Positions 28,913-36,321 of a stretch of 46,152 nucleotides of DNA are shown here, one piece after another (within the stretch, counting starts at the first letter, position 1; each line of letters starts with the position of its first letter). Below the pieces are notes generated by a model that was not told the origin of the DNA, did no database searches, and saw only the letters and a list, made by a program, of their open reading frames with translations. The position numbers were made by a program, and so were the translations under genes. The stretch comes from Verrucomicrobiota bacterium (lineage in GTDB: Bacteria > Verrucomicrobiota > Verrucomicrobiia > Verrucomicrobiales > Akkermansiaceae), in NCBI GenBank assembly GCA_004293445.1, contig RDYP01000018.1:1-46152 (forward strand), read 5' to 3'.

Positions 28913-29779
28913 TCAGTCGGCTTTCCCGAGATTCGCCTTCTTTTCAGACTCGCTCCACTCGAAGCGCGGCAGCTTGCTCCGATCCAAATTTTTGAGGTGT
29001 GCCTCGCCGCTGCGGGTAGGATCATCGGCACGGCGGTAGGTCCATGAGTTGTCGCCGAAGACTTCGATGCACAGTTCGGCGAGCGCGGGATCGTATGCTT
29101 GTAGCTCTTTGCGGGTGTTGACGTGGTTGTGAATCGCGTCGTTTTCGCGGTTGGTGCCGAACCACGACTGCACCGCCTCCGCCCAATATTCGTGATGATT
29201 TTCCGCCGCGTAGCAGTTCTTCCATTTGCCTGCTTTTAGCGCGGCTTGGTAAGTCTCCCTGAGTCGGCGATCGAAGCTGGGATCGATCGTCTTGAGGCCC
29301 ATCTCATGAATCGCGTGGGCAAATTCGTGGACCATGATGTTTTCCGTCGGATAGGGGTCCCCCGAGAGGCAGAGCACGTTTTCCTCCGCGCAGCTCACTG
29401 CCGGGCGCTCATGCGTGGCTCCGAGTCCGCGAGCGCGACGGTTCCAAAAATCAGCGGGTGTGAGGTCGGAATGTTCCGGCAGATCGGTGGTCCGCTCAGT
29501 GGTCGCCATCACGGACAAGCGAACCTTGTTTTTTGCCATCGCGTTCAGGATGTCCTCGCGGCCGGTGAGCATCGAACGCACCAGCAGTGCAGCTTCGGCA
29601 AGCGCGGCGTCGTCAACTTTGTCCGACGCCACCACGGGAAAGCGGCCCACCATCACGCATTTTTCGTAGAAAGAAGCGAATGAGAAAGTATCGACGATCG
29701 GTTCAGGGATGGGACGAAGCACCTCCGCGGTGCAGCAGTTGGCGAGACCGATCAGCAATGGGGTGATGAGTGTCTTCAT
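28913..29779 (-). CDS. Secreted zinc metallopeptidase-like protein
   Basis: A 288-residue protein with a short signal peptide (MKTLITPLLIGLANCCTA). The gluzincin-type motif is HEFAHAIH near residue 152, preceded by SGDPYPTENIMV; a downstream NHHEYWAEAVQSWFG supplies a glutamate as likely third zinc ligand. Four or more cysteines may form disulfides. Substrate and named family are unknown to me. The ATG at 29779 is chosen because it starts the signal peptide; a longer frame to 29923 reads into the divergent promoter. It is divergent from the giant phosphoesterase-like gene, and both products should act outside the cell. Confidence 0.72.
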   Translation of the reverse strand: MKTLITPLLIGLANCCTAEVLRPIPEPIVDTFSFASFYEKCVMVGRFPVVASDKVDDAALAEAALLVRSMLTGREDILNAMAKNKVRLSVMATTERTTDLPEHSDLTPADFWNRRARGLGATHERPAVSCAEENVLCLSGDPYPTENIMVHEFAHAIHEMGLKTIDPSFDRRLRETYQAALKAGKWKNCYAAENHHEYWAEAVQSWFGTNRENDAIHNHVNTRKELQAYDPALAELCIEVFGDNSWTYRRADDPTRSGEAHLKNLDRSKLPRFEWSESEKKANLGKAD

Positions 29780-29844
29780 GTGGGCGTGAATATGGCGAAA
29801 GATTCGCAAGGTGCCAGCCGATCCCGCGTGCCATGTGAGTGAAG

Positions 29845-29856
29845 TGTCACGTGACA
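29845..29856. promoter_or_regulatory. 12-base palindrome in the divergent promoter region
   Basis: TGTCACGTGACA is a perfect palindrome lying 65 bases upstream of the zinc protease start and 72 bases upstream of the giant gene start. Its place between two divergent secreted-protein genes makes it a candidate operator for both. One half with the next base reads CTGTCAC on the minus strand, like a PhoB half-site, but the second half-site at 11-base spacing is poor. Confidence 0.4.
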
Positions 29857-29928
29857 GTTTATTTGCGAGGAAATGCGGGTGCTCCATCGGGCGATGGCTG
29901 TGGATGCGCCGGTCATTCTCCACACATC

Positions 29929-32900
29929 ATGAAATTCAGATCGTTATCCCTGATCTTATTTAGCGGGTCGCTGATTCAAGCGAGCCATGCACTCACTGCG
30001 GGCGGCATCGCTTTTACAAGCTTCAACGCCGACCGCGACGCCCTTGCCTTCGTTGCGTTGGAGGCTATCGCCGCTGGCGAAGTCATCTACTTCAATGACA
30101 ACGAGTGGAATGGCAGCCCGATCGGTTCAGGCGGCACGTTCAACACTGGTGAGGGAGTGGTGACTTGGACCGCGCCCGCCGAGGGAGTGCCTGCTGGAAC
30201 CGTGGTGGTGATTGATAACTATGATAGCGCCATTAGCATTTCAGCATCAGCTGGTAGCGTGGTCGGTTCGTCAGGAATCAGCTCGAGCACGGACAGCATT
30301 TATGCCTACCAAGGAATCAGCAATTCGGATCCTTCCATTTTCATTGCTGCCATCTCCAATCATTCCGCCGACAGCATTGTTGGAACGGGACTCACCTTGG
30401 GCAGCACAGCGATTCAAGTTCTGCCGAACGGCACTGACCAAGCGGAATATACAGGACCACGGATCGGGCAGGCATCGATCACGGACTATCTGGCCCTGAT
30501 CGGAAATGTTGCGACCAACTGGACCGGCGGAGGAGAGGGCGACTTTGCCACCACTACTGCCAACGCAGCTTCTTTTAGTACTGGGGCTGCTGGTGCGATT
30601 GTTTCCATCGATTCTGTGTCAGTTTCTGAAGGTAACTCTGGAACTTCCGTTCTCACTCTGACGGTTTCGCGCTCGAACAACGCCTCCGCTTTTACCGTCG
30701 ACTATTCCGCGACTGGAGGAACCGCCACTTCGGGTTCGGATTTCGTCGCTCTACCAGCTGGCACGCTTGCGTTCACAGTTGGAGGCGCACTCACCCAGAC
30801 GATTAACCTCACCATCAATGGCGATGAAACGATCGAGTCGAATGAGACGGTGATCGTCACGCTCGCGAATCTCGTTCAAACAAGCAGCACGACGAGTCTT
30901 GGTAATGCTTCCGGCACTGGCACCATCACCAACGATGATACGGTCCCAGTGGCCTATCCGGCTAGCGGGTCACTCGCTTCCACGGTAAAGGGCAGCATCA
31001 CTCTTGGTGGCTCCGAGATCCCGGCCTTCGATCCGATTTCCAAGCGGGCCTTTGCTTCATCGAATGCCGGCATTCAGGTGGTCGATCTCGCCAATCCCGC
31101 CGCGCCGTCCCTGATCACGACCATCGTGCCATCGGCTCTCGGTGTCGCTGGTCTGACCAGCAACGATGTTTCTTCCATCGCGATCCGCAAGGGTTCCGGT
31201 GGCAATCCGAGCGTGCTCGCCGCGGCCATCATCAATTCGCCGAAAACCGCCAACGGTCACGTGGTCTTTCTCAACGCCGCCACCGGTGCCTTGCTTGGAT
31301 CGGCCACGGTCGGTGCGGTCCCCGATCACATTGCCTTCACTCCCGACGGCTCGAAGCTCCTCGTGTGCAACGAAGGCGAACTGGACGGCACCGCTGCCAA
31401 CATTGCCGCCGAGACGATTCCGGGCACTGTTAGCATCATCAATGTGAGCGATCTTTCGGCACCTGTCGTCACGACCGCCGGCTTCGCTTCCTTCAACGCC
31501 TCCGCCGCCACGCTCAAGGCCTCAGGCGTCCGGATCTTCGACGGCGGTGTTCCAGAGTTCGACTTCGAACCCGAATACCTCGCCATCTCTCCGGATGGAA
31601 GCAAGGCCATGGTCACTCTCCAGGAAGCCAACGCCGTCGCCATCCTCGACATCGCCACTGCGACCTTCACCTCCGTGGTGCCGCTCGGTGAAAAGGACTT
31701 CTCCACGGGCAAGCACGACTTCAGCGACCGCGATGGTGCGGGCAGCTCGAATCTTGTGAACCCCACCACCGGCAATGCCGTGTTCGGTCTCTACATGCCC
31801 GACGCCATCGCCTCCTATCAGGTCGGCGGGCAAACCTACTACGTGACTGCGAATGAGGGGGACGATCGCAATGACTTCCTCAATCCGGACGAGTCGACGA
31901 CGGTCGCCAATGCGAGCTATGATCTCGATGATACCGTCTTTCCGAACGAGAGCACTCTCAAGACCAGCGCCAAGTTCGGCCGTCTCACGGTTTCGAATGC
32001 AAGTGGCCTGCGTGGCGATACGGACAATGACGGAGATATCGACCGTATCCTCAGCTACGGTGGTCGCTCTTTCTCGATCCTCGATGACACCGGGGCGAAG
32101 GTTTTCGACAGCGGGGACATGATCGAGAACATCGTCGCATCTCAATTCACCACGAAGTTTGACGATGGCCGTAGCGATAACAAGGGTCCCGAGCCGGAAG
32201 GGGTGACCGTGGCGAAAATCGGTTCCCGAACCTTTGCTTTCGTCGGCCTCGAGCGATCCCATCTCACTCTTGCCTTCGATGTCACCAATCCACTCGCGCC
32301 AACCTTTGCCGCGGGTTTCGAGCGCAGCGGTGATCTGAATCCCGAGGGCATGGTGGTCGTCAATGCCGCCGACAGCCCCACCGGCAAGCCGCTCTTGCTG
32401 GTTTCCAGCGAAGTTTCGAATACGCTGACCATTTTCGAGATTGGTCAAGCGGTCGACTTTAAGCTCCAGCTGCTTCATCTCGCCGATGCGGAGGCCGGTT
32501 TGCTCGCCTCGCAGACCGCACCCAATCTTGCGGCTCTGGTGGACGCCTTCGACGGCACCTACCCGAACACGCTGATCCTCGCCGGTGGAGACAACTACAT
32601 CCCTGGTCCCTTCGCGGCGGCCGGCACCGATGCCGCCGTCGCCGCCACCCACAGCCGCGGCAACAACCCGTTCGCGGCCGACATCGAGATCCACAACCGT
32701 ATCGGCGTGGAGGCATCGACCGTGGGCAACCATGAATTCGACTTCGGCACCAACGCGTTCTCCGACGCCATCGCCGACACGAACTTCCCCTACCTGAGCA
32801 GCAATCTCGACTTCTCCGGCGACTCCGCCCTTTCGACCCGCTACGCGGAAACCGTTGGCACCGGCGGTCTTGAGGAAGCGTCCAGCGTGAAAAACAAAAT

Positions 32901-35900
32901 CGTCCCGAGCTGCGTGGTCACCAAGGGCACCGAGAAGATCGGCCTCGTCGGAGTTACCACCCAGATCCTCGAGGGCATCTCCTCGACCGGAGGGGTGGAA
33001 GTGAAGGGATTCACGGGTGATGGCAGCGAGGCCAATGACATGGCTCTGCTCGCCAGCCAGATTCAGCCAGTGATCAACGACCTCAAGAGCCAAGGCGTGG
33101 ATAAGATCGTGCTGATGGCCCACCTCCAGCAGATCGTCTTCGAACAGCAGCTCGCTCCGCTGCTCACCGACGTGGATGTGATCCTTGCCGGGGGTTCCAA
33201 TACCCGCCTCGGCGACTCGACCGATACCGCGGTCGCCTTCACCGGCCATGCTGCGGACTTCGCCGGAAACTACCCGATCTACACCACCGGTGCCGACGGG
33301 CTCCCGACCGTCATCGTCAACACCGACAACGAATTCACCTACCTCGGTCGTCTCGTTGCCGACTTCGATGCGGATGGCGTGCTGATCGTGCCAAACCTCA
33401 CCGCGAACACCGCGGAAAACGGAGCCTATGCCGCGACTGCTGCCAATGTTGCTGCTGCGTGGAATACGACGGAAGCGGATCTCGCCACCACTGCCTTTGC
33501 CCCAGGCACGAAGGGTGCGCTGGTGAAACAGATCACCGACGCCGTGCAGGGCGTGATCAATGCCAAGGATGGCGATGTTCGCGGCTTCACCGATGTCTAT
33601 CTGGAAGGCGAGCGCAATTTCGTCCGCAATCAGGAGACCAACCTCGGCGACATCAGTGCCGACTCGATGATCTTCGTCGGCAAGGCCGCTCTTCCGCAGG
33701 CAACCCATGTGATTGCGATGAAGAACGGTGGTGGGATTCGTGCCGCGATTGGCGCGGTGGATGTGGTTACTGGTGACAAGTTGCCACCGATCGCCAACCC
33801 GGGAGCTTCCAAGCCAGCTGGTGCCATCTCGCTGCTCGATATCGAAAATTCGATGCGTTTCAACAACGGCTTGATGCTCTGCGACACCACTCCCGCCGGC
33901 CTCAAGGCCATTCTCGAGCACGGTGTGGCCTCCCTCGGCAATCAAGGGCGATTCCCACAGATCGGCGGTATCCGCTTCTCCTACGATCCCACAGCTACTG
34001 CGGGTTCACGCGTGAAGAGCATCGTGCTGATCGATGAGAACGACCACATCACCGCCCGCGTGGTTTCTGGAGGATCGGTTCGCTCCGACGCCCCAGGCAC
34101 CATCACGCTGGTGACCTTGAACTTCCTCGCCAATGGCGGAGATAGCTATCCGTTCAAAGCGTACGCAGACAACTTCCGCTTCCTCCTGAACGATGGCACG
34201 CTCTCCGTCCCTGTGGACGAGGCCCTCAACTTCACCGCCGTCGGTGTGGTTCCTACCAACCTCTTGGGTGAGCAGCGCGCGCTGTCGGACTACCTCCAAG
34301 CTCGCCATGCCACCTTGGCCAACGCCTACGATGTCGCCGAGACCACTCCAGCACTCGACACCCGGATTCAAAGCACCAGCGTCCGGGTCGATAAGGTTCT
34401 CGACGGTCCTGCGACCTTCGCCGCGTGGTTAGCTGATAATGGTTACACCGGCAGCTCGGCCGGAGACAGCGACAATGATGGAGTGCCCGACTCGCTCGAG
34501 TATTTCTTCAACGCCAATCCGAACCAAGGTGGCGATCGGGGCAATCTCCCTGTTGTAACCATGAATGGAAACGATCTGGAGTTCCGCTTCACCTATCTCA
34601 ACACCACGGTCTTCCCGGCCCGCATGCAGGCTTCCGATGACCTGACGGCGTGGGCGGATGCAATTCCTGGCGTCGACTACGAAGTCATCAGTGAGACGGT
34701 CACGGGCAACGAAACCGCCGTGCGTTTCCGGATTTTCTGCAATCCGCTGCCGACGACCCAAGGGCCGTTCACTTATCTCACTCCTTTCACCACGGCGGTG
34801 GAGCGCGGTGCGATCGACCGATTGACCATCACCAACCATGGCATGGTGGGTGCCGGCCGCCTCTCGGGCGACTCCTACGACAGCTTCGGTGAAACGATGG
34901 GTGCCGCCTCCGGTCTTTCGATCACGGGCTGGAGCTTCGATTCGACGACGGGCCGCTTCAACGGAACCTTCAACGTCCTGCCGGACCGCGGTTACAACAG
35001 CGGTTCCATCTATTCCAACTACGCCGCCCGCGTGCATCAGACGCCCTTCACGTTCACTCCCTACTATGGAACGGCGCCTGTCGCGCAGTCGCAGATCGTG
35101 CCAACCTACGGCAGCACGGTGAAGTTCACCTACCTCGATGGTTCGACCACGAAGTTCACGACCGGTCTGAATCCGACGGGTGTGCAGTCGCTCTTCGGCC
35201 AGAGTGTCGGAACCGCGACGGCTGCCAACGGACCGGGTGGGGCTCAGGAAAGTCTGATGAGCTTCGATGCCGAAGCCATTCACGTATTCTCCGACGGCTC
35301 CGGCTTCGTCTCCGATGAATACGGCACCTACATCTGCCGATTCAACAGCGCGAAGCAGTTCACCCGTATCATGCAACTGCCTGGTGCCGCCCAACCGCAC
35401 AAGCCAGTGGGGACGCTGAACTTCGATTCCATCGCGGCCCCGACCAATGGACGTCGCAATAACCAAGGTCTCGAAGGCATGGCGGTGTCGCCCGATCAGT
35501 CGCGCCTCTTTGCCATGATGCAAAGCGCTTTGGTCCAAGACACCGGTAGCGGTGCCAAAGGCCGCTTCAATACCCGCTTGTTCGTCTATGACATCGCGGG
35601 TGATAAGCGCGAGGCTCCCGTGCTTGTGGGTGAATATGTGGTGCAGCTTCCTCGCTACAAGGTCAACGGTGACGGTGGTGCCTTTGACGCGACGGCGGCT
35701 CAGTCGGAGATTGTGGCTTTGAGCAATTCCCAGCTGCTCATGCTTCCACGCGATGGCAATGGTCTTGGTAAGGGTGACACGAATCCTCCGGTGGTGAAGA
35801 CCGTCGATTTGGTCGATTTCTCCACGGCGACCAATGTCCTCGGTCTCTATGATTCGGAAGCGGATCAGGTCAGTCCTTCGGGAACCCTGCGTTCGGGAAT

Positions 35901-36261
35901 CACTCCGGCCCGCAGCACGGTTGTGGTCAATCTCCTCTCTAGCGATGACCTCGGGAAGTTTGGCTTCAATACGAATACGGCTAGCCCGAACTCGTTCACG
36001 GTGAACGAAAAAGCCGAAGGCATGGCTCTCGTGCCAGATACTTCGACCGCGAGCACCGAGGACTACTTCCTGTTCGTGGCGAACGACAACGACTTCCAAG
36101 CCAGCGATGTCCGCATGGTGGATGCGTCCGGCAATCTGGTGAGCTATGGCGATGCCCGCGACCGTGGAATCACCAACGATGCGGTGTTCACCGCCTGGCG
36201 CATCACGATCTGCCCGAACAATCGCAAGTTCTTCCGGATGGACGTCGAGACGGGCAACTGA
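29929..36261 (+). CDS. Giant secreted multi-domain 5'-nucleotidase/phytase-like protein
   Basis: A 2110-residue exported protein; signal peptide MKFRSLSLILFSGSLIQASHA. Order: N-terminal module with FTSFNADRDALAFVALEAI and IYFNDNEWNG (22-220); Calx-beta domain (222-337, VSVSEGNSGTS to GTGTITNDD); choice-of-anchor-I beta-propeller (354-840, ISPDGSKAMVTLQEANAVAI, VTANEGDDRNDF, GPEPEGV); metallophosphatase plus 5'-nucleotidase C domain (843-1450, GNHEFDFG near 932, MKNGGGIRA, TPAGLKAILEHGVA); DxDxDG calcium-type linker (DSDNDGVPDSLEYF); and an esterase-like phytase domain (about 1620-2110, GWSFDSTTGRFNGTFNVLPDRG, DAEAIHVFSDGSGFVSDEYG, NQGLEGMAVSPDQSRLF). It should release phosphate from organic esters outside the cell; this is inferred from families. 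The ATG at 29929 starts the signal peptide. No C-terminal sorting signal is seen. A strong terminator follows. Confidence 0.9.
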   Translation: MKFRSLSLILFSGSLIQASHALTAGGIAFTSFNADRDALAFVALEAIAAGEVIYFNDNEWNGSPIGSGGTFNTGEGVVTWTAPAEGVPAGTVVVIDNYDSAISISASAGSVVGSSGISSSTDSIYAYQGISNSDPSIFIAAISNHSADSIVGTGLTLGSTAIQVLPNGTDQAEYTGPRIGQASITDYLALIGNVATNWTGGGEGDFATTTANAASFSTGAAGAIVSIDSVSVSEGNSGTSVLTLTVSRSNNASAFTVDYSATGGTATSGSDFVALPAGTLAFTVGGALTQTINLTINGDETIESNETVIVTLANLVQTSSTTSLGNASGTGTITNDDTVPVAYPASGSLASTVKGSITLGGSEIPAFDPISKRAFASSNAGIQVVDLANPAAPSLITTIVPSALGVAGLTSNDVSSIAIRKGSGGNPSVLAAAIINSPKTANGHVVFLNAATGALLGSATVGAVPDHIAFTPDGSKLLVCNEGELDGTAANIAAETIPGTVSIINVSDLSAPVVTTAGFASFNASAATLKASGVRIFDGGVPEFDFEPEYLAISPDGSKAMVTLQEANAVAILDIATATFTSVVPLGEKDFSTGKHDFSDRDGAGSSNLVNPTTGNAVFGLYMPDAIASYQVGGQTYYVTANEGDDRNDFLNPDESTTVANASYDLDDTVFPNESTLKTSAKFGRLTVSNASGLRGDTDNDGDIDRILSYGGRSFSILDDTGAKVFDSGDMIENIVASQFTTKFDDGRSDNKGPEPEGVTVAKIGSRTFAFVGLERSHLTLAFDVTNPLAPTFAAGFERSGDLNPEGMVVVNAADSPTGKPLLLVSSEVSNTLTIFEIGQAVDFKLQLLHLADAEAGLLASQTAPNLAALVDAFDGTYPNTLILAGGDNYIPGPFAAAGTDAAVAATHSRGNNPFAADIEIHNRIGVEASTVGNHEFDFGTNAFSDAIADTNFPYLSSNLDFSGDSALSTRYAETVGTGGLEEASSVKNKIVPSCVVTKGTEKIGLVGVTTQILEGISSTGGVEVKGFTGDGSEANDMALLASQIQPVINDLKSQGVDKIVLMAHLQQIVFEQQLAPLLTDVDVILAGGSNTRLGDSTDTAVAFTGHAADFAGNYPIYTTGADGLPTVIVNTDNEFTYLGRLVADFDADGVLIVPNLTANTAENGAYAATAANVAAAWNTTEADLATTAFAPGTKGALVKQITDAVQGVINAKDGDVRGFTDVYLEGERNFVRNQETNLGDISADSMIFVGKAALPQATHVIAMKNGGGIRAAIGAVDVVTGDKLPPIANPGASKPAGAISLLDIENSMRFNNGLMLCDTTPAGLKAILEHGVASLGNQGRFPQIGGIRFSYDPTATAGSRVKSIVLIDENDHITARVVSGGSVRSDAPGTITLVTLNFLANGGDSYPFKAYADNFRFLLNDGTLSVPVDEALNFTAVGVVPTNLLGEQRALSDYLQARHATLANAYDVAETTPALDTRIQSTSVRVDKVLDGPATFAAWLADNGYTGSSAGDSDNDGVPDSLEYFFNANPNQGGDRGNLPVVTMNGNDLEFRFTYLNTTVFPARMQASDDLTAWADAIPGVDYEVISETVTGNETAVRFRIFCNPLPTTQGPFTYLTPFTTAVERGAIDRLTITNHGMVGAGRLSGDSYDSFGETMGAASGLSITGWSFDSTTGRFNGTFNVLPDRGYNSGSIYSNYAARVHQTPFTFTPYYGTAPVAQSQIVPTYGSTVKFTYLDGSTTKFTTGLNPTGVQSLFGQSVGTATAANGPGGAQESLMSFDAEAIHVFSDGSGFVSDEYGTYICRFNSAKQFTRIMQLPGAAQPHKPVGTLNFDSIAAPTNGRRNNQGLEGMAVSPDQSRLFAMMQSALVQDTGSGAKGRFNTRLFVYDIAGDKREAPVLVGEYVVQLPRYKVNGDGGAFDATAAQSEIVALSNSQLLMLPRDGNGLGKGDTNPPVVKTVDLVDFSTATNVLGLYDSEADQVSPSGTLRSGITPARSTVVVNLLSSDDLGKFGFNTNTASPNSFTVNEKAEGMALVPDTSTASTEDYFLFVANDNDFQASDVRMVDASGNLVSYGDARDRGITNDAVFTAWRITICPNNRKFFRMDVETGN

Positions 36262-36287
36262 TCCTGCGATTCAAGAGGCGTTCTCAG

Positions 36288-36321
36288 GCGCGGGCATGCT
36301 TCGGCGTGCCCGCGCTTTTTT
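36288..36321 (+). terminator. Strong intrinsic terminator of the giant gene
   Basis: GCGCGGGCA (36288-36296) and TGCCCGCGC (36307-36315) pair, and the inner TGC/GCG extends the stem to 12 pairs closed by a C(TTCG)G tetraloop; six T follow directly (36316-36321). It lies 26 bases after the stop and faces the convergent glnS gene. Confidence 0.92.

Follow-up and report, generated by a model that had tools for sequence, protein, structure and literature searches.

A candidate secreted, modular organic-phosphate hydrolase in a Verrucomicrobiota genome, with a beta-propeller homologous to cyanophage PhoA

We analyzed a contig of a Verrucomicrobiota bacterium of the Akkermansiaceae (RDYP01000018.1 in assembly GCA_004293445.1) and, on it, one gene for a protein of 2110 residues. 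The 46,152 nucleotides analyzed, hereafter the window, are the entire 46-kb contig of a 3.35-Mb, 49-contig assembly that is 97% complete. Our favored reading, to which we give a probability of about 60%, is that the protein is a secreted modular organic-phosphate hydrolase with active sites probably unlike the usual zinc types. We confirmed that the domain list and the single intact open reading frame (ORF) are real. A preliminary description, made from the sequence alone, had seen one secreted polypeptide with these domains, and this part stands: the ORF opens with a signal peptide-like stretch that would export the protein, the Calx-beta, choice_anch_I, 5_nucleotid_C and Phytase-like matches all exceed the curated Pfam cut-offs, and the metallophosphatase half is recognized through homology with 5'-nucleotidases of solved structure (2z1a, E 2.6e-23). 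The same description had set the choice_anch_I propeller aside among adhesion-type modules. Homology and common acidic residues tie this propeller to cyanophage PhoA, and the functional story should center on it.

The choice-of-anchor I propeller

The propeller domain (residues 359-838) scores 312 bits against a cut-off of 32 on the choice-of-anchor I (choice_anch_I) family PF22494, and 449 bits against a cut-off of 300 on NCBIfam NF038117. Seventeen records in a phage collection match the protein. Nine come from Synechococcus phages (six different ones, to judge by name); in these the matching gene is annotated as an alkaline phosphatase and aligns to residues 373/374-837, the entire choice_anch_I domain, with a best E of 7e-14; the other eight match other parts of the protein or are unrelated in kind. 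All four phage PhoA proteins examined pass the PF22494 cut-off (61-70 bits vs 32), and in each of the four loci opened phoA lies directly 3' of the phosphate-transporter gene pstS. The phage proteins are barely more than the domain (418-451 residues), whereas in the window it is one domain of 2110 residues. A phage PhoA query matched 32 loci; when the bacterial alignments A1 and A2 served as queries, no viral homologue was confirmed.

The residues common to the bacterial and viral propellers are acidic more often than expected. Alignment A3, of nine bacterial with six viral choice_anch_I sequences, has Asp or Glu in 19 of its 47 invariant columns, compared with 59 among all 493 residues (1e-7 by a hypergeometric test that takes no account of solvent exposure), and in a second alignment of 28 rows (A5, 22 of 34 bacterial segments and six of 32 viral loci) 13 of the 28 invariant columns do so (2.7e-6); both tests ignore the relatedness of rows. 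Among the invariant residues are two Pro-Asp pairs, Glu-Pro-Glu twice, Gln-Glu-x-Asn, Glu-Gly-Asp, and Arg and Lys. The pairs P465-D466 and P624-D625, unchanged in 28 of 28 rows, appear to fit the published account of D/E-rich motifs with a "PD" motif, a comparison made with the description and not with the published figures.

That account concerns PhoAaty, an atypical alkaline phosphatase whose D/E-rich and PD motifs have been likened to the calcium sites of PhoX (PMC4548154; this and the other papers cited are represented here by excerpts). The motifs are also described in a study of the recombinant dinoflagellate enzyme, which Ca, Mg and Mn activate and Zn does not (PMC6723241). With PhoX (PF05787) considered as a possible parent fold, a profile comparison gave choice_anch_I a probability of 54% by hhalign (E 1.3e-4, 113 columns). 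The Synechocystis phoA-nucH operon is switched on by phosphorus limitation via SphR (PMC1906773), the Prochlorococcus MED4 phoA product is described as a distant homologue of Synechococcus PhoAaty, and Psip1, another propeller phosphatase, requires Fe and Ca (both PMC11098088). The tie between the window protein and the PhoA of Synechococcus PCC 7942 or the dinoflagellate alkaline phosphatase runs through this literature and a control-genome match, not through direct alignment.

By homology and conserved residues, no other part of the chain is as good a candidate phosphatase as this propeller, which would be of the PhoAaty kind. Its invariant Asp and Glu, together with Arg and Lys, would bind the metal and the phosphomonoester; judging from the homologues, the metal would be Ca2+, perhaps plus Fe or Mn. 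Structure prediction gives a good propeller (pLDDT 84). The Sphingobium phosphotriesterase 5hrm ranked fifth in Foldseek (TM 0.52) and was missing from the 50-row Z ranking; we did not use it as evidence.

The nucleotidase unit

The metallophosphatase domain and the nucleotide-binding C-terminal domain follow each other as in the secreted type I 5'-nucleotidases (UshA, CD73 and T. thermophilus 2z1a), enzymes that work with an Asp-His dyad and a dimetal center (PMC8475336). The window protein shares with them GD, GNHEFD, the later His and the catalytic Asn-His...Asp (N934, H935, D938), and differs in having D-x-E for D-x-H and GSN for GHSH. At the canonical metal and catalytic positions, defined by the ligand roles in UshA, it has D853, E855, D888, N934, H935, D938, H1065, G1089 and N1091. 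In the C domain NGGGIR, F-N-N and GGDxY, which we take to be the nucleotide-binding motifs, are intact, and the C-domain motifs are intact in most of the related sequences aligned.

The altered site is itself conserved. We compared 42 nucleotidase rows chosen by similarity (E<=1e-10, >450 residues), some of which are near-copies, such as L022, part of L060 (L numbers designate the loci retrieved); this choice left out two canonical sequences, L073, which has D-x-H as well as GHSH, and L074, which has GHSH and is unaligned in the first block. Both served as contrast rows in a separate motif alignment, in which an L037 row at 1181-1400, a false domain, was disregarded. Asp is found at 853 in 34 of the 42 rows (Gly 5, gaps 3), Glu at 855 in 35 (Gln 3, Asp 1, gaps 3) and Asp at 888 in 39 (gaps 2); H935 and D938 are each kept in 40 with two gaps, N934 in 36 and the Arg of GGGIR in 38. 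Position 1089 is Gly in all 42, i.e., the first histidine of GHSH is lost throughout. The remaining positions are looser, with His (31) or Gln (11) at 1065 and a variable residue at 1091 (N 17, H 10, D 6, G 4, T 3, E 2). D-x-E also occurs on a cyanobacterial plasmid (L071), in Skermanella (L068) and in Cylindrospermopsis (L070, with the second His retained), and the Deinococcus row (L069) reads D-x-D.

As far as alignment can tell, then, this unit is a conserved, non-canonical branch and not an ordinary 5'-nucleotidase, which may well work like one. The intact C domain would bind nucleotides, and the remodeled metal site, with Glu and Asn in place of His, would cleave them.

Two further variants turned up among the relatives. 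L133 and L134 contain paired adjacent nucleotidase copies (four units) with altered nucleotide-binding motifs: RHAGSI, RNAASI or KHAGGI for KNGGGI, GNQ for FNN, and also GHHE for GNHE, which suggests a different role or decay. A second, likewise conserved sub-type has YYGESG, DQLD and GGGHE at the metal positions (L008, L037, L041, L058, L135 and L137).

The Phytase-like unit

The C-terminal propeller is a clear member of PF13449 (117 bits vs a cut-off of 27.6), with homology that runs wider than the Pfam domain, over about residues 1615-2110. Asp or Glu fills 11 of the 32 invariant columns in an alignment of 20 rows (5e-5) and 14 of 90 in a closer set of 14 rows (0.03). The preliminary description proposed inositol-phosphate-type esters as a substrate, for which we see no sign. 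The beta-propeller phytase family PF02333 has no match in the protein at E<=1 and none in the genome at E<=0.001, and a profile search of solved structures returned no phytase at E<=1. The predicted model is of moderate confidence (mean pLDDT 66.9); its closest fold is YjiK (3qqz, Z 18.6, rmsd 2.9, 233 aligned), and the phytases 3amr (Z 14.1, rmsd 4.5, 260 aligned) and 1poo (Z 13.8, rmsd 4.8, 267 aligned) score level with unrelated propellers. Comparison with PhoX (PF05787) gave 14% by hhalign over 21 columns. The term "phytase" thus seems to rest on the Pfam name, with phytate as a substrate unsupported by these comparisons.

A connection with phosphate is suggested by Nodularia nsp7010, an "atypical alkaline phosphatase (esterase-like activity of phytase family protein)" that is related to the window protein by family assignment, not by alignment. 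It belongs to the phosphate-limitation stimulon with values of 5.53 and 3.82, as does a neighboring metallophosphoesterase with 4.38 and 3.42 (PMC9846622), values that we take as log2 changes, the column heads being unseen. The Phytase-like propeller may be a further module of the enzyme, either hydrolytic or substrate-binding. Common ancestry of the two propellers was considered and is unsupported, with probabilities of 7% and 1% in profile comparisons; one phage PhoA (L079) has a sub-cut-off match to PF13449 (19 bits vs 27.6, E 0.0013).

Recurrence and modularity

A genome-contig scan found 13 related loci, the closest named ones in metagenome-assembled genomes (MAGs) of Verrucomicrobiaceae, several of them labeled Prosthecobacter. 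Five of the 13 (L034, L035, L036, L037 and L039) carry choice_anch_I, nucleotidase, linker and Phytase-like unit in this order in one frame, so that a search for the full domain order, proposed earlier as a check, has a positive answer. These five proteins span 2451-3745 residues, which leaves the window protein less exceptional in size than it had been portrayed. L035 and L036 have the N-terminal region and Calx-beta ahead of the shared order, like the window protein, and in L038 the same architecture is divided between two overlapping ORFs; the remaining seven loci are partial, truncated or otherwise arranged. Elsewhere the only single match over the whole query was the window itself (at least 57 relatives listed, and 384 class members at E<=1e-60, both counts taking in the window's own genome). 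The order was absent from all 40 stretches inspected (20 per search), several of which end at contig edges; L059, L063, L131 and L135 are cut by contig ends, and the order could continue beyond.

Segment queries over all bacterial and viral loci retrieved gave 143 ORFs, 109 without contained copies, of which 107 carry one or more of choice_anch_I, nucleotidase and Phytase-like unit, a sample drawn by similarity to the window protein, with many loci truncated, whose counts are not population frequencies. Single units account for 30 choice_anch_I ORFs (phage PhoA included), 24 Phytase-like and 11 nucleotidase. Two or more units are joined in 42 of the 107: nucleotidase with choice_anch_I in 27 (one half of L038 among them, as its halves were counted separately), nucleotidase with Phytase-like in four, and all three in 11. 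Six of these 11, the window included, have the order aI-NT-Ph (aI, choice_anch_I; NT, nucleotidase; Ph, Phytase-like), and the others are Ph-NT-aI, Ph-aI-NT, aI-Ph-NT, Ph-NT-aI-NT and aI-Ph-aI-NT, in which the match to the Phytase-like unit is weak. That the same units have been re-joined repeatedly in varied orders argues for a common task. The modules of the window protein may cooperate, perhaps with induction by low phosphate.

The two-unit fusions resemble the window protein in having choice_anch_I and nucleotidase in one chain and differ in being without a Phytase-like unit and, in some, in placing the nucleotidase first. Such pairs had been described as marine; they also occur in pond and lake MAGs and in desert-sand Skermanella. 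The Skermanella plasmid protein (WP_203099293; L068 6001-12066) joins an altered-site nucleotidase to choice_anch_I and adds an ExeM/NucH-type nuclease and RTX repeats. In Picosynechococcus pAQ7 (WP_012305544; L071 5493-10553), the same altered-site nucleotidase forms part of a long protein with an ExeM/NucH nuclease where the window protein has two propellers. Plasmid records matched numbered 207, of which nine were inspected.

Other relatives show further combinations. In six same-genus genomes (L047-L052) the linker and Phytase-like end are joined to different front parts; the two fronts run through Pfam (L047 and L051) consist of an SdiA-regulated (YjiK-like) propeller and lamin-tail domains, which in L034 precede the choice_anch_I unit. 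In a relative of 3105 residues (L044 6949-16263), a PhoD phosphatase sits mid-chain in a protein that also contains two Phytase-like domains.

Gene layout and genome context

Table 1. Features of the gene and its flanks (window coordinates).
Feature	Position	Strand	Basis or remark
Palindrome TGTCACGTGACA, possible operator	29845..29856	.	84 bp upstream of ATG; once in window
Coding sequence, 2110-residue protein (ATG to stop)	29929..36261	+	Open for 2110 codons
Likely signal peptide, residues 1-21, ending S-H-A	29929..29991	+	Read by eye
N-terminal region, residues 22-224	29992..30600	+	Related segments occur in other proteins
Calx-beta domain, residues 230-333	30616..30927	+	PF03160, 4.9e-10
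choice_anch_I beta-propeller, residues 359-838, candidate alkaline phosphatase	31003..32442	+	PF22494 8.5e-93, 312 bits; cyanophage PhoA homology
Divergent metallophosphatase domain, residues about 841-1200	32449..33528	+	Homology and motif alignment
5'-Nucleotidase C-terminal (nucleotide-binding) domain, residues 1227-1408	33607..34152	+	5_nucleotid_C PF02872, 8e-19
Linker module, residues about 1490-1600, DSDNDGVPDSLEY-type Asp-rich stretch and next segment	34396..34728	+	Homology copies
Phytase-like beta-propeller, residues 1678-2056	34960..36096	+	PF13449 1.8e-33, 117 bits
Rho-independent terminator, 14-bp stem, 4-base loop, T run	36286..36317	+	z -3.6

In the ORF list the start is a GTG at 29839; the signal peptide-like stretch opens at the ATG of 29929. 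Residues 22-224 have no Pfam or NCBIfam match at E<=1. To judge from the domain type, Calx-beta and the Asp-rich linker may be calcium-binding spacers; the linker module has weak copies at two further places in the genome and is present in many relatives. Third-position GC is 0.59-0.62 in codons 1-400 (29929-31128; N-terminal region and Calx-beta) and 0.67-0.81 beyond, so these two parts may differ in history from the remaining units. The shift sits before or at the propeller start, with none between the propeller, nucleotidase and Phytase-like units. The terminator scan gave six sites vs 5.6 in shuffles, so only the 14-pair stem was kept; the promoter scan gave two vs 1.9.

In the 97%-complete genome the protein is the single full-length match to itself; no other PF02872, PF22494 or PF13449 protein was found there, nor was PhoD. 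Ten neighboring ORFs were scanned, and six have a family match (glutamyl/glutaminyl-type tRNA synthetase, M20 peptidase, OmpA, S4 domain, class-V aminotransferase and a sub-cut-off metallopeptidase), four have none, and no phosphate family is among them. The metallopeptidase matches (PF07737 4e-4, PF06167 6e-4) belong to the divergent neighbor at 28913-29923 (-), which has no NCBIfam match at E<=0.01. Upstream of the relatives L034, L035, L036, L039 and L041, GTGAC/GTCAC-type elements occur at varying spacing within about 190 bp of the first ATG.

Weighing the readings

Several observations tell against an organic-phosphate hydrolase built around a PhoAaty propeller. The alkaline phosphatase label of the cyanophage genes is an annotation, and the two viral proteins compared with the NCBIfam choice_anch_I model reach 150 and 128 bits, below its cut-off of 300. 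S. elongatus is among the three of 14 control genomes that match PF22494, with the matching gene not shown to be phoA. Alkaline phosphatase labels are unreliable, since names have shifted between families: the Nodularia "atypical alkaline phosphatase" is assigned to PF13449 (PMC9846622), and a Crocosphaera gene once named phoA has been re-assigned as a 5' nucleotidase (PMC12260270). In structure the choice_anch_I model comes closest to YncE and WD40 proteins (7seu_D, Z 34.0, rmsd 2.2, 292 aligned), and propeller folds are common to many non-enzymes; with neighbors so generic, the fold alone is uninformative on function. In the nucleotidase unit the canonical metal ligands are partly lost (D853-A-E855, G1089-S-N1091), and Pfam Metallophos (PF00149) was not detected in the protein at E<=1. 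Further phosphatases are encoded in the genome, namely one PF00245 alkaline phosphatase and one PhoX match (71 bits), and a tandem TGTCA Pho box of the E. coli type was not found in the window, although the Verrucomicrobial box may differ.

These points lend themselves to other explanations. Both propellers might be non-catalytic binding or surface modules, comparable to S-layer and YncE propellers, with the nucleotidase unit as the sole enzyme. The mostly non-enzymatic fold neighbors agree with this, as does the S-layer propeller 1l0q, the best solved-structure sequence match of the A3 profile (4e-19); that match falls in repeated YVTN-type blades, however, and the strictly conserved residues are enriched in Asp and Glu and common to phage PhoA, so we consider this explanation unlikely. 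The nucleotidase unit could conversely be a pseudo-enzyme that has lost its metal site and is kept for nucleotide binding or structure, as the altered motifs, the undetected Metallophos profile, the variable position 1091, the Gln at 1065 in some rows and the altered nucleotide-binding motifs of the four L133/L134 units would allow. Most of the altered site is nevertheless conserved, in rows that include cyanobacteria and Alphaproteobacteria, with the D-x-D of Deinococcus alongside, and we hold a pseudo-enzyme to be unlikely. A nucleotidase paired with a true phytase, that is, an inositol-phosphate hydrolase, with the choice_anch_I propeller and Calx-beta serving adhesion or spacing, would account for the PF13449 match and for the Nodularia gene pair in the phosphate-limitation stimulon; the silence of PF02333 (at E<=1 in the protein and E<=0.001 in the genome), the tie of 3amr and 1poo with unrelated propellers and the homology of the supposed adhesion propeller to phage PhoA make it improbable. 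An assembly or frame artifact fusing two genes might be suspected in a window that is a whole contig of a 49-contig assembly, given the two ORFs of L038 and the lower third-position GC of the first 400 codons. It is very unlikely, because the single-frame order recurs in five other assemblies, two of them also with the N-terminal region and Calx-beta in front, and the earlier proviso of a frameshifted or merged gene falls away.

We therefore return to the secreted modular hydrolase. An organic-phosphorus hydrolase is the simplest reading of the domains, as the preliminary description had it; its "complete" scavenger is not borne out, and no exonuclease or endonuclease domain was found in the protein at E<=1 in Pfam or NCBIfam. 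A bolder version would make the protein a three-headed, zinc-free, single-chain organic-phosphate scavenger that uses calcium, manganese or iron, with a PhoAaty propeller, a carboxylate/amide nucleotidase and an acidic Phytase-like propeller. We regard this version as possible though doubtful.

Implications

Neither this domain fusion nor a link between choice_anch_I and PhoAaty was found in the open-access literature searched. In many waters growth is limited by phosphorus, and the catalog of enzymes able to free it from organic matter is still poor. The conserved, non-canonical metal site of the nucleotidase unit raises the question of which metal it uses and whether zinc is spared. Were the three-headed version true, many proteins labeled just "choice-of-anchor I" would be alkaline phosphatases. 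If the propeller is a phosphatase, surveys that count PhoA, PhoD and PhoX would overlook Verrucomicrobial proteins of this kind, and a widespread family named only for its anchors would gain a testable function.

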